Positions 30,307 through 53,657 of a stretch of DNA of 64,000 nucleotides are shown piece after piece. The position numbers were made by a program, and so were the translations under genes. The stretch spans positions 744,001 through 808,000 of the forward strand of contig NZ_BSDC01000001.1 of assembly GCF_030268045.1 (NCBI RefSeq), given 5' to 3'. The number at the start of each line of letters is the position of its first letter. The stretch's first letter is position 1. Below the pieces are notes generated by a model. The model ran no database searches and had not been told where the DNA came from. It saw nothing but the letters and a program-made list of their open reading frames with translations. The stretch is from Geothrix edaphica (GTDB lineage Bacteria; Acidobacteriota; Holophagae; Holophagales; Holophagaceae).

Positions 30307-30627
30307 TTAGAACGCACTCTCCACGAAGGCCTTCAGCTGGGGCTTCGGCTGGCCGCCGATGAGCTTGTTCACGGGTTTGCCGTCCTTGAACACGATCAGG
30401 GTGGGGATGCTCATGATGCCGAACTGGCCGGCGACCTGGGGGTTCTCGTCCACGTTCATCTTCACGAACTTGGCCTGGCCCTTCATCTCGGCGGCCAACT
30501 CGTCCAGGACGGGGGCGATCATCTTGCAGGGGCCGCACCAGGGGGCCCAGAAATCCACGAGGGTGACACCCTGGGCGACGGCCTGGGGGAACTCGGCGTC
30601 AGTGATGTGGGCGACAAGGTCGGACAT
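30307..30627 (-). CDS. trxA: Thioredoxin
   Basis: A 106-residue thioredoxin with the active site WAPWCGPCK (Cys31, Cys34), the buried Asp in LVDFW, and the cis-proline segment SIPTLIVFKDG. It reduces protein disulfides in the cytoplasm. AAGGAG precedes the ATG by 6 bases. It is transcribed leftward towards the shared terminator. The cyclic-nucleotide-binding gene lies 26 bases upstream and may be co-transcribed. Confidence 0.97.
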   Translation of the reverse strand: MSDLVAHITDAEFPQAVAQGVTLVDFWAPWCGPCKMIAPVLDELAAEMKGQAKFVKMNVDENPQVAGQFGIMSIPTLIVFKDGKPVNKLIGGQPKPQLKAFVESAF

Positions 30628-49888: not shown

Positions 49889-50274
49889 GGGCAGATGCCC
49901 CGCGGTGATTGCAAGAGGAGGCGCCCGGCTGATTCCCCATCAGGCGGGCGCTTCCCATTGGACTCGGCCTCCCGGCGCGCCCTGGGCTCATCGATCCTCA
50001 GGGGATGGTTCCGGCGGTTCAGTGCGACTGGTCGATCCTTCAAATTGAAGGGGTGGGCAGGCCATCCTGATGGAATGGTCTGTATTGATCGGTCAATAAT
50101 TGAACTTTAATTATTAATTATATGGAAGATATGTTGTGGCGCAAATTGTGCTTAAAAGATCTGGTCAGGGACTCTGACTGGTTCTGGGCCGACTGGTTGC
50201 GCAAGGAGATCCGTGCATCGTCTGCTCCCTTCTCGGGATTTCAGATGTCAACAAGGGTTAAGGGTCAGGAAATC
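49889..50274. other. Intergenic region upstream of the KaiC-like operon
   Basis: A hairpin at 49921-49951 is followed by an AT-rich stretch (about 50081-50150). The latter includes TTGATC at 50085-50090 and the dyad TTGA-TCGG-TCAA (50085-50096), suitable for a promoter or regulator site. An ATG at 50122 is in frame with the next gene but has no ribosome binding site. No other gene is seen. Confidence 0.4.
49921..49951 (+). terminator. Hairpin, probable terminator
   Basis: GCGCCCGGCTGAT (49921-49933), loop TCCCC, ATCAGGCGGGCGC (49939-49951), one mismatch in 13 pairs, followed by CTTCCC. It lies 32 bases after the stop of the Ntn-hydrolase-like gene. The T tract is weak. Confidence 0.6.
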
Positions 50275-50691
50275 ATGTGTCGCGAGTCGATACGAAGGAC
50301 CTTGGCGCTGTCGGCTGGTATCGCCCCGGATTCGCGCGGCGTGGCTGAGGCCACCCTCCGCACTTGGGGCCAGATGGCGGCGCGGCTGGCCCCCGTCATC
50401 GGCGCGCGTGGAGTCGATGCCCTCTTCGGCCGCTCGCTACAGGTGACAAGCGCTACCTTCCCCTGGCTTTCAAAGGCCGGGGGGTCGGATGACAGCGCCA
50501 ACCCCCTGACAAACCTCAGAGCGAGCCTCGAGGCCATTGATCCGGTGGTGGGCACCGAAGGGAGCTTCGCCCTGCTGGTGGCCTTCACCGAGCTGCTGGC
50601 AGCTCTGATCGGAGAGTCCTTGACTGAGCGTCTGCTGGATCCGGTATGGACGCCTCCGAAGCCCACGACCGAACAGGAGACCCATCCATGA
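50275..50691 (+). CDS. Unknown helical protein heading the KaiC-like operon
   Basis: A protein of 138 residues from ATG 50275 (AGGA 4 bases upstream); ATG 50245 or ATG 50122 are in-frame alternatives giving 148 or 189 residues. It looks largely helical: RRTLALSAGIAPDSRGVAEA, then TLRTWGQMAARLAPVIGARG and a C-terminal helix SFALLVAFTELLAALIGESL. No family is recognised and no TM helix or signal is seen. Its stop overlaps the KaiC-like ATG (ATGA), so it is made together with that ATPase and is a candidate partner or regulator of the signalling pair downstream. Confidence 0.6.
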   Translation: MCRESIRRTLALSAGIAPDSRGVAEATLRTWGQMAARLAPVIGARGVDALFGRSLQVTSATFPWLSKAGGSDDSANPLTNLRASLEAIDPVVGTEGSFALLVAFTELLAALIGESLTERLLDPVWTPPKPTTEQETHP

Positions 50692-52175
50692 GAAGAAAAG
50701 TGACCATCAGCCTACTTGCCACAGGCGTCCCCGGACTGGACTCCATCCTGGGCGGCGGCCTCCCGGAGTTCTCCTTCAATCTGATTGCGGGCCCCCCGGG
50801 ATCCGGAAAGACCACGCTGGCGCATCAGATCATGTTCGCCCTGGCGACGCCGGAGCGCCGGGCGCTGTTCTTCACCGTGCTGGGGGAATCGCCGCTGAAG
50901 ATGCTCCGCTACCAGCAGCAGTTCTCCTTCTTTGATCCAGGGAAGGTCAACCAATCCATCAAGTTCGTGAACCTGAGCCACGAGGTCACGACCGGTCATT
51001 TCGACCAGGTCCTGGCCCGCATCATGGAGGAGGTCAAAGCCTTTTCCCCGGGGCTGGTGTTCGTCGATTCCTTCCGCTCCCTCATGTTGGAGGCCAGCCA
51101 CCAGGCCAATTCGACGATGAGCCCGCTGCAGTTCATGCAGGAACTCGGGATCAAGCTGAGCGGATGGCAGGCCACGGCCTTCCTGATCGGGGAATACATT
51201 TCCGACAACGACGCCCAGCCGGTCTCCTCGGTGGCCGATGGCCTCCTGTCACTGAATCAGAGCGTTTACCGGAACTCGATGGTGCGCAAGATCCAGGTCC
51301 TGAAAATGCGTGGCCAGCAGACCAGCCCGGGGATTCATACCTTCCGGATCACCGGCGATGGCCTTGAAGTCTTCCCGGCGGCCACCATTCCCAGTGATAG
51401 CGGGGCCATGGGGCCCCCCTCCCGGCGTCCGCACTCCCAACGGCGGCTGACCATGGGCGTACCCGGTCTTGATGACATGCTGGGCGGCGGCCTGCCAGCC
51501 GGCTATTCGCTGCTGGTTGCAGGGCCGTCCGGGTCCGGGAAGACGATCCTCGCCACGGCCTTCCTGTCTGAAGGCGTCCGCCTGGGCGAACCGGGCGTGA
51601 TCGTCGCCTTCGAGCAGACGCCGAGCCAGTCGTGGACCCGCACGATCGACGAGCTGGTCCGGGCCGGGAAGATCGGCCTGATCAACACCAGGCTGCTGGA
51701 TCTGTCGATCGACGAGATTGTCCAGCACCTGATCGACCTCATCCAGAAGATGAAGGCGACCCGGGTGGTGATCGACTCGCTGTCCGGGTTCGAACTGGCC
51801 GTGGCGCCAACCTTCCGGGAGGATTTCCGCGAATCGCTGTTCCGCATGATCACCGTCCTGTCCGGCCTCGGCGTGACGGTGCTGATGACTTCGGAACTCG
51901 AAGACCGGTACACGGACCTGCGATTCAGCTCCTATGGGTCGGCGTTCCTCACCGACGCGATCATCGTCCAGCGCTACATCGAGATGAACAGCCGCTTGAA
52001 GCGCGTCATGGCGGTCGTCAAGGTGCGCGGGAGCAACCACAGCGACCAGCTCCGGCAGTATGAGGTCACGGATGAAGGCATCGTGATCGGTGAGCCGGTG
52101 GTCGACTACGAGCGGCTCCTCGGCGGGCAGCCGACGCCGACGATCGCCCAGCCTGGCGTGGGCGAGCCGCGATGA
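50688..52175 (+). CDS. KaiC-like double-domain RecA-superfamily ATPase
   Basis: A 495-residue protein with two KaiC domains. First domain: GVPGLDSILGGGLPEFS, Walker A GPPGSGKTT (Lys41) and GLVFVDSFRSL. Second domain: GVPGLDDMLGGGLPAGYS, Walker A GPSGSGKT (Lys285) and RVVIDSLSGFEL. In cyanobacterial KaiC each domain has a Glu-Glu pair; here the equivalents are Gly66-Glu67 and Glu309-Gln310. AGGAG lies about 8 bases before ATG 50688. With no kaiA or kaiB nearby, it is more likely a signalling or DNA-repair-like ATPase than a clock. It is coupled to the genes on both sides by 4-base overlaps. Confidence 0.88.
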   Translation: MRRKVTISLLATGVPGLDSILGGGLPEFSFNLIAGPPGSGKTTLAHQIMFALATPERRALFFTVLGESPLKMLRYQQQFSFFDPGKVNQSIKFVNLSHEVTTGHFDQVLARIMEEVKAFSPGLVFVDSFRSLMLEASHQANSTMSPLQFMQELGIKLSGWQATAFLIGEYISDNDAQPVSSVADGLLSLNQSVYRNSMVRKIQVLKMRGQQTSPGIHTFRITGDGLEVFPAATIPSDSGAMGPPSRRPHSQRRLTMGVPGLDDMLGGGLPAGYSLLVAGPSGSGKTILATAFLSEGVRLGEPGVIVAFEQTPSQSWTRTIDELVRAGKIGLINTRLLDLSIDEIVQHLIDLIQKMKATRVVIDSLSGFELAVAPTFREDFRESLFRMITVLSGLGVTVLMTSELEDRYTDLRFSSYGSAFLTDAIIVQRYIEMNSRLKRVMAVVKVRGSNHSDQLRQYEVTDEGIVIGEPVVDYERLLGGQPTPTIAQPGVGEPR

Positions 52176-53644
52176 GCGACCGTGAGCGCGCCCGCCAGAC
52201 GGGCCCGGCCGGACCTCCGCCTGGGGCGGGCAAAAGCGCGCCTGGCCCGGGCTCGGTGGCGGTGGAGAGCAGAGGAATCAGCGAAGAGGTGCTGCGGGAA
52301 GCGAATGAGGGCCTCGTCCTTGCGACCGTCAACGCCCAGGCCATGACGGATGCGGCGGAGCAGGCCGCCGCGCAGCTGCGGGAAGCGAACGAAAGCCTTG
52401 TCATCGCGACGGTCAATGCCCAGACCCTGGCCCAGGCTGCCGAGCAGGCCGCCGCCCAGATCTCCTATACCGCCCACCTCGAAGCCCAGCTTCTGGAGGC
52501 CCAGAAGCTGGAGACCCTCGGCGTGCTCGCCGGTGGCGTCGCCCACGACTTCAACAACCTCCTCACCGCCATGCTGGGCAATGCGAACCTGGGCACCATG
52601 GCCGCGGAAGAGGGGCGCAGCGTGGCGCCCTATTTCGCGGCCATCGAGAAGGCGGCCATGCGGGCGGCCAGTCTCACGCGCCAGCTGCTGGCCTACGCGG
52701 GGACCGGGAAACCGGTCATGGCCGAGGTCGACCTCGGGATTGTCGTCAAGGAGGTCATCCAGGTCTTCACCGCCTCCCTTCCCAGGAACGTGACCCTCAG
52801 CTGCGATCTGGCGGAGCGGCTCCCGCTGGTGCATGGCGACGCCACCCAGATCTTCCAGGTCCTCATGAACCTGGTCACCAATGCTGCTGAAGCTTGCCAG
52901 ACAGACAGGGAGGGCCGGATCAACATCCGGACCCGCGAGGAGTACATGGACGAGGCGGCCCTCGGGGTCGGCCACTGGGTACTGCCCTTGACGCCGGGCC
53001 GCTACGCCACGCTGGATGTAAGGGATACGGGGGAGGGGATGGAGCCCGAGGTGGTGAAGCGGGCCTTCGAGCCCTTCTTCACGACGAAATTCACGGGCCG
53101 CGGGCTGGGCCTGGCCGCGGTGATGGGAATCATCCGCAGCCACGGGGGCGGGCTCTGGGTGGGAAGCGAGCCCGATTGCGGCTCCTCCTTCAAGATCTTC
53201 ATGCCCGCCATGGCGGACTCGGCGTTGATGCCTCCCCCGGAAGCTTTGCCGCAGGCCTGGCGTGGGCAGGGTCGCATCCTCGTGGTCGATGATGAGCTGG
53301 CCGTCGGCCAGGTGGCCCGGAGCATGGCGGAGCACTTCGGCTTCTCCGTCCTTGACGCCAGGGATGGCCTGGAGGCCGTGGAGCTCTTCCGCCTGCACCA
53401 CGGGGAGCTGGCCATGGTGCTCATGGACCTCATCATGCCGGGCATGGGCGGGCAGGAGGCCTTCCGGGAAATGCGGAAAATCGACAGCACCGTCCCGGTG
53501 GTGCTCAGCAGCGGCTACAACGTTTCGGACACGGACCTCTTCGTCGAGGGGCTGGCCGGGCTCCTCAAGAAGCCCTATCGGCTGGCAGAGTTCCAGGAAG
53601 CCCTTCAGCGGGCCCTGGCGATGCGGCTGCTTCCGCCAGGCTAG
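52172..53644 (+). CDS. Hybrid histidine kinase-receiver
   Basis: A 490-residue soluble sensor kinase. Residues 1-35 are disordered. Two exact-length 28-residue repeats (41-68, 69-96) form a probable coiled coil. HisKA box GVLAGGVAHDFNNLLTAML carries His125. The HATPase has N-box QVLMNLVTNAAEA, G1 DVRDTGEGM, F-box FEPFFTTKFTGRGLGL. A C-terminal receiver (about 369-485) has ILVVDDELAVGQ and phosphoacceptor Asp419 in VLMDLIMPGMG, with Lys in LLKKPYRL. There is no TM or PAS domain, so the input may come from the KaiC-like protein coupled upstream (inference). The kinase head is NtrB-like. Confidence 0.9.
   Translation: MSDRERARQTGPAGPPPGAGKSAPGPGSVAVESRGISEEVLREANEGLVLATVNAQAMTDAAEQAAAQLREANESLVIATVNAQTLAQAAEQAAAQISYTAHLEAQLLEAQKLETLGVLAGGVAHDFNNLLTAMLGNANLGTMAAEEGRSVAPYFAAIEKAAMRAASLTRQLLAYAGTGKPVMAEVDLGIVVKEVIQVFTASLPRNVTLSCDLAERLPLVHGDATQIFQVLMNLVTNAAEACQTDREGRINIRTREEYMDEAALGVGHWVLPLTPGRYATLDVRDTGEGMEPEVVKRAFEPFFTTKFTGRGLGLAAVMGIIRSHGGGLWVGSEPDCGSSFKIFMPAMADSALMPPPEALPQAWRGQGRILVVDDELAVGQVARSMAEHFGFSVLDARDGLEAVELFRLHHGELAMVLMDLIMPGMGGQEAFREMRKIDSTVPVVLSSGYNVSDTDLFVEGLAGLLKKPYRLAEFQEALQRALAMRLLPPG
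52292..52459 (+). repeat. Two 84-base tandem repeats in the kinase N-terminus
   Basis: Units 52292-52375 and 52376-52459 encode LREANEGLVLATVNAQAMTD and LREANESLVIATVNAQTLAQ, each ending AAEQAAAQ. Twenty-eight residues equal four heptads, so the repeat extends a coiled coil without breaking register. Confidence 0.85.
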
Positions 53645-53657
53645 GCTCCAGCAGACA

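Follow-up and report, generated by a model that had tools for sequence, protein, structure and literature searches.

In Geothrix edaphica, a KaiC-like ATPase is encoded between a small helical protein of an unnamed family, here called X, and a histidine kinase. From the sequences compared below, we lean towards reading X and KaiC as a nucleotide-dependent input module that would act on a short helix, the EAN helix, carried by varied output enzymes. The window, the whole 64,000-nucleotide stretch that was analyzed (positions 744,001 to 808,000 of contig NZ_BSDC01000001.1), holds the three genes on the same strand at 50275-50691, 50688-52175 and 52172-53644, with a four-base ATGA overlap at both junctions (X/KaiC and KaiC/kinase). 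These coordinates and the shared strand bear out the initial annotation, which had described two such overlaps and treated the genes as one unit. The features of the operon are as follows:

50275..50691, + strand: gene X, for the dedicated partner of KaiC, an all-helical protein of 138 residues whose family has no name
50688..52175, + strand: KaiC-like double-domain ATPase, 495 residues
50790..50813, + strand: Walker A of the first KaiC domain, residues 35-42 (positions 35, 38 and 40-42 invariant in 88/88)
51522..51545, + strand: Walker A of the second KaiC domain, residues 279-286 (Lys285 in 88/88)
51942..51947, + strand: Ala419-Phe420, aligned to the KaiC phosphosites S431/T432
52172..53644, + strand: cytoplasmic hybrid histidine kinase, 490 residues, the output enzyme
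52292..52360, + strand: EAN helix copy 1, kinase residues 41-63 (profile iE 3.6e-8)
52373..52444, + strand: EAN helix copy 2, kinase residues 68-91 (profile iE 1.5e-9)
52544..52546, + strand: candidate phospho-accepting His125, from its motif
53426..53428, + strand: candidate receiver Asp419, from its motif

Gene X runs from ATG 50275 to TGA 50689-50691. Its start is uncertain because the frame stays open upstream to 50122; ATG 50275 is favored by an AGGA a few bases 5' and by the boundary of the conserved domain. The KaiC gene extends from ATG 50688 to TGA 52173-52175, and the kinase gene from ATG 52172 to a stop ending at 53644. A promoter scan found no sigma-70-like promoter, and reading the operon genes together with Pfam found no kaiA or kaiB within the operon, as the initial annotation had said.

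The X-KaiC module is accessory. A peptidase-like gene upstream and an Rrf2 gene bound a site of variable content, window positions 49889-53657, judged from the 26 Geothrix genomes that carry both genes on one contig. The gap between the two is 3775 bases in the G. edaphica window, 9-59 bases in five of the 26 genomes, and of various sizes up to 15 kb in the others. The module of genome G158 lies at the same site and that of G244 elsewhere, and in the Acidobacteriota sample 3 of 26 Geothrix genomes have X.

X and KaiC are found side by side in distant genomes. Among the best 80 of 564 confirmed candidate loci, fetched with a KaiC profile (A2), an HMM placed X directly upstream of a KaiC of this clade in 79, and 74 of the 80 have an X/KaiC overlap of exactly four bases. 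Locus L036, whose start motif differs, was left out of the overlap scoring, and its coordinates fit four bases; in L095, X is split over two ORFs. These best 80 loci include five phyla (Pseudomonadota, Thermodesulfobacteriota, Nitrospirota, Myxococcota and Acidobacteriota), and since 42 of the 80 are from Pseudomonadaceae the counts are not independent; outside that family, X is present in 37 of 38. The conserved clustering that the initial annotation had suggested looking for is thus seen for X and KaiC, which form a constant pair. Its set of three genes holds only in part, as the third gene swaps between kinases and c-di-GMP enzymes.

In a sample of 396 Acidobacteriota genomes, KaiC was detected at E<=1e-60 in 15, and an X profile (A1) found X, adjoining KaiC by coordinates, in 13 of the 14 besides G. 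edaphica itself; the sole miss, G025, has a KaiC that is 32% identical. One genome, G317, has X with no KaiC found. KaiCs of other clades had no X of their own beside them in any of the seven cases examined (G025, G402, G405, G407 and G408). The distances among X proteins and among KaiCs correlate (r=0.94, 79 loci), a value to which shared ancestry contributes. In a congener (G244, locus L017), X and KaiC form one open frame of 671 residues with no stop between them; a start codon and a purine-rich stretch still precede the KaiC part, so a separate KaiC may also be made there. One locus, L040, has a KaiC of the clade and an output with an EAN helix, yet no X was found in its genome, and X is therefore not always needed. 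Plasmids carry the genes as well: X-KaiC appears in three matches on Caballeronia plasmids, one with KaiC split over two frames, and a Polaromonas plasmid has X without KaiC. At L016 (7326-8199), the neighbor of X is a fragment of a kinase and no KaiC was found; this looks like a decayed module.

The pair is followed by enzymes of several kinds. A downstream output was found in 78 of the best 80 of 564 loci, 76 of them within an interval of -450 to +400 bases and two more (L046 and L066) after a wider look; of the other two loci, the only kinase at L074 is on the opposite strand, 892 bases further along, and in L067 the contig ends after 266 bases. The outputs are histidine kinases, hybrid kinases, GGDEF-EAL proteins and GGDEF-kinases, with nine GGDEF-EAL proteins and one GGDEF-kinase confirmed by Pfam, and output type switches at least seven times on the KaiC tree. 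The window KaiC falls inside a 22-row clade of that tree with mostly GGDEF-EAL outputs, from which we infer that its kinase is probably the replacement of a c-di-GMP enzyme. In this kinase, Pfam places HATPase_c and Response_reg over their cut-offs and HisKA just under (24.7 bits, cut-off 26.9). The HATPase_c domain, the receiver and the candidate His125 and Asp419, which from their motifs we take to be the phospho-acceptor and the receiver site, identify it as a hybrid histidine kinase. Pfam detected no PAS or other sensor family in it, in agreement with the initial annotation on the PAS domain, and the KaiC-like protein may well provide the input, as was also proposed there.

The only common element that we saw in outputs of different catalytic type is the EAN helix, a 24-residue heptad helix just before the catalytic domain with the consensus QLREANEQLVLAALSAQSLAAAAE. 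A 24-residue profile trained on the odd-numbered loci, with the window kinase outside the training set, detected it in all 39 of the held-out outputs at iE<0.1 and in 37 of them at 0.01, the held-out half having genera in common with the training half. With the training rows included, the helix is present in 78 of 78 outputs at iE<0.1 and in 76 of 78 at 0.01 (best 80 of 564 loci), and a stricter regular expression matched 63 of the 76 outputs scored first in the same best 80. The window kinase has two copies, the motif of the second beginning 28 residues after that of the first, and in L017 and L012 one copy stands before each catalytic domain. Eight separately fetched loci also have the helix (L011, L012, L014, L015, L017, L018, L019 and L020); in L020 the downstream ORF lacks it and the ORF that flanks KaiC at its opposite end has it. 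Elsewhere it is rare: the profile search found none in 1356 other ORFs, none in the four outputs of other-clade KaiCs that were examined, and one among 22 other kinase or GGDEF ORFs, namely the next gene in the L027 module. That gene (L027, 8133-10109), a further signaling ORF of 658 residues, comes after the one for the GGDEF-EAL output.

In the G. edaphica genome, an EAN DNA pattern matched the window kinase only, twice. In 16 further genomes, chosen for having the module, there were 12 matches, of which 11 are in X-KaiC modules and the last is in an unrelated protein, so that 13 of 14 fall in modules over the 17 genomes; as the pattern does not allow for every codon and variant, eight of the 16 gave no match. 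A broader pattern had 23 matches in the 396 Acidobacteriota genomes, six in the three modules of the same genus (G000, G158 and G244) and 17 elsewhere. A reversed control pattern had 11 matches, counted by eye, and an extended motif fits one of the 17 matches elsewhere (L140), which has a stop nearby in its frame. We therefore regard the broad pattern as noisy and the extended motif as specific.

No other common element was seen in outputs of different catalytic type, and the EAN helix occupies the place at which kinases and GGDEF domains take in conformational signals; we therefore regard it as the best candidate for the part that receives the signal. It could instead be merely a dimerizing coil that the outputs inherited together. 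X and KaiC would then be co-inherited, the helix would be a generic dimerization or signaling coil, and X-KaiC would not touch it but would act through a different part of the output or through some other target. The helix does have a heptad pattern and a position at which signaling helices are found, and the PAS kinase output of L021, a divergent Acidobacteriota module, has no EAN helix. Against a generic coil stand its near-exclusive presence in outputs of one KaiC clade, across both histidine kinases and GGDEF enzymes, and the 13 of 14 pattern matches within modules in the 17 module-bearing genomes, and we find this alternative rather doubtful.

X itself belongs to no family known to Pfam, NCBIfam or the PDB, so that the failure of the initial annotation to recognize it is borne out. 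None of 69 family members matched Pfam, and no PDB chain matches the family by sequence. One of the 69 matched an antiporter subunit in NCBIfam (E 0.0028), a lone match that we took as chance. With an alignment of 69 of the 77 listed rows (A3; eight Pseudomonadaceae rows were left out), AlphaFold2 predicted an all-helical X with seven helices at a pLDDT of 88 and a pTM of 0.82, while the fold predicted from a single sequence was poor (pLDDT 45). Foldseek against PDB and viral structures gave no match at E under 0.001; the best PDB match had an E of 1.6, and VIA-align reached a Z of 5.2 with unrelated helical proteins. KaiA and KaiB are missing from these fold-match lists, and their absence there carries no weight. 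PADLOC assigned no defense family to X or the kinase and matched KaiC to ATPase profiles over parts only, and anti-phage defense was rejected as an explanation. Longer second paralogues of X, in open frames of 227-236 residues, occur near the module in L021 (4375-5055), G084, G249 and G352. The small size of X, its synthesis just ahead of KaiC and the strict four-base overlap might suit a translation-coupling leader, or a chaperone needed for KaiC folding only, with no part in signaling. Such a role is improbable for what the AlphaFold2 model presents as a well-folded, conserved domain, which in G244 is continuous with KaiC and which has longer paralogues.

The second gene is a KaiC (Pfam PF06745, in two stretches) with two RecA-like domains in which Walker A and B are intact. 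All 88 aligned KaiCs keep both Walker A lysines, both Walker B aspartates and one glutamate per half, Glu67 and Glu309, presumably the catalytic positions. From these residues, KaiC should bind ATP in both halves. We take S431 and T432, in the numbering of Synechococcus elongatus KaiC, as the phosphosites; 87 of the 88 proteins carry Ala where S431 aligns, and all 88 carry Phe where T432 does. With these side chains the known phosphorylation cycle cannot operate in this clade, and a phosphorylation clock is unlikely; a clock was accordingly rejected as the main explanation. Of the two roles that the initial annotation had offered, that of a timing sensor is disfavored for this reason, and an ATP-state sensor is possible. 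A genome-wide KaiB profile search had one match, at 20.7 bits against a cut-off of 27 bits (contig positions 774334-774486; window 30334-30486, - strand), which may be some other protein with a thioredoxin fold. A reduced timer, circadian or of the hourglass kind, in which KaiC would keep time without KaiA and KaiB and inform the kinase, with X in the place of one or the other, could appeal to the KaiC homology, to an all-helical X encoded upstream of kaiC and to the kinases beside kaiC proposed as hourglass partners in PMC3164672, but with both phosphosites lost and KaiB matched only below cut-off we give it little credence.

We therefore return to X and KaiC as an input module, for which the following route is conceivable. 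Because the two genes appear to be co-translated, are fused in one genome and are co-inherited, X and the KaiC-like ATPase are likely to form a physical complex as they are made together. KaiC would assemble as a ring that binds ATP in both halves without the known phosphorylation cycle. In the fusion, X is attached to the N-terminus of KaiC, which points to the first ring; in clocks, this is where KaiB and SasA act. X may set or sense the nucleotide or partner state of KaiC, with the ATP/ADP state or a ligand of X as the candidate input. This state would pass to the neighboring enzyme through the EAN helix before its catalytic domain; that enzyme is a hybrid histidine kinase in G. edaphica and elsewhere one that makes or breaks c-di-GMP. 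Loss of the phosphosites, pairing with X and varied enzymes sharing the EAN helix together suggest a plug-in cellular sensor and not a clock. More tentatively, X and a non-phosphorylating KaiC could be a general sensor of this kind: a ring powered by ATP that would respond to the energy state of the cell, or to a ligand of X, and would switch whichever enzyme carries an EAN helix, be it a histidine kinase or a c-di-GMP enzyme.

Parts of this arrangement have precedents. The Ramlibacter tataouinensis genome paper, published in 2011, already reports kaiC genes whose phosphosites are poor and which lie close to histidine kinase or GGDEF/EAL genes; its Fig. S6 legend names SF and AF phosphosite profiles and marks unspecified hypothetical proteins as HP (PMC3164672). 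By its features alone, our module resembles the 'black group' kaiC of that paper, with poor phosphosites, an adjacent signaling gene and no kaiB required; X, the overlap, the fusion and the EAN helix appear here and not in the available text on that group. The N-terminal module of the R. tataouinensis histidine kinase, RtaNt, is receiver/KaiB-like and, as described there, belongs to another KaiC group. Pseudomonas KaiCs of other clades (L191, L192 and L193) have downstream kinases whose N-terminal regions are similar, perhaps of this RtaNt type. The cyanobacterial KaiABC-SasA system likewise has a double-domain KaiC and a histidine kinase output; unlike it, the module has no phosphosites, no KaiB over cut-off and no KaiB-like kinase domain in Pfam, and X is added. 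In Rhodobacter sphaeroides, a kaiBC operon also joins kaiC and a kinase, but that system has KaiB, and the available part of its description makes no mention of X (PMC5520375). The S-helix, as partly available in PMC1592074, is a heptad helix before kinase and GGDEF domains as well, but it has ~40 residues and, in its central heptad, an ERT signature, which the EAN consensus does not contain, and the EAN helix is tied to one KaiC clade. The title of Terrettaz 2023 links KaiC-like proteins to stress resistance and biofilm in environmental Pseudomonas, the genus to which many of the module loci belong; P. protegens FD6 has two KaiCs, one of them in an X-KaiC module, and so the KaiC of that study may or may not be of this clade. 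In the literature searched, mostly outside subscription papers, we found neither X nor the EAN helix described, which does not establish their absence from print.

Among KaiC homologues outside clocks, one clade, spanning at least five phyla and including common Pseudomonas species, now has a specific partner protein, a natural fusion and a short, portable helix that marks its likely targets. 'KaiC near a kinase' thereby becomes a testable three-part mechanism. The module may connect the energy state of the cell to both two-component and c-di-GMP signaling, and if the plug-in sensor is true, KaiC would have a signaling mechanism distinct from the clock that uses a docking code of its own.
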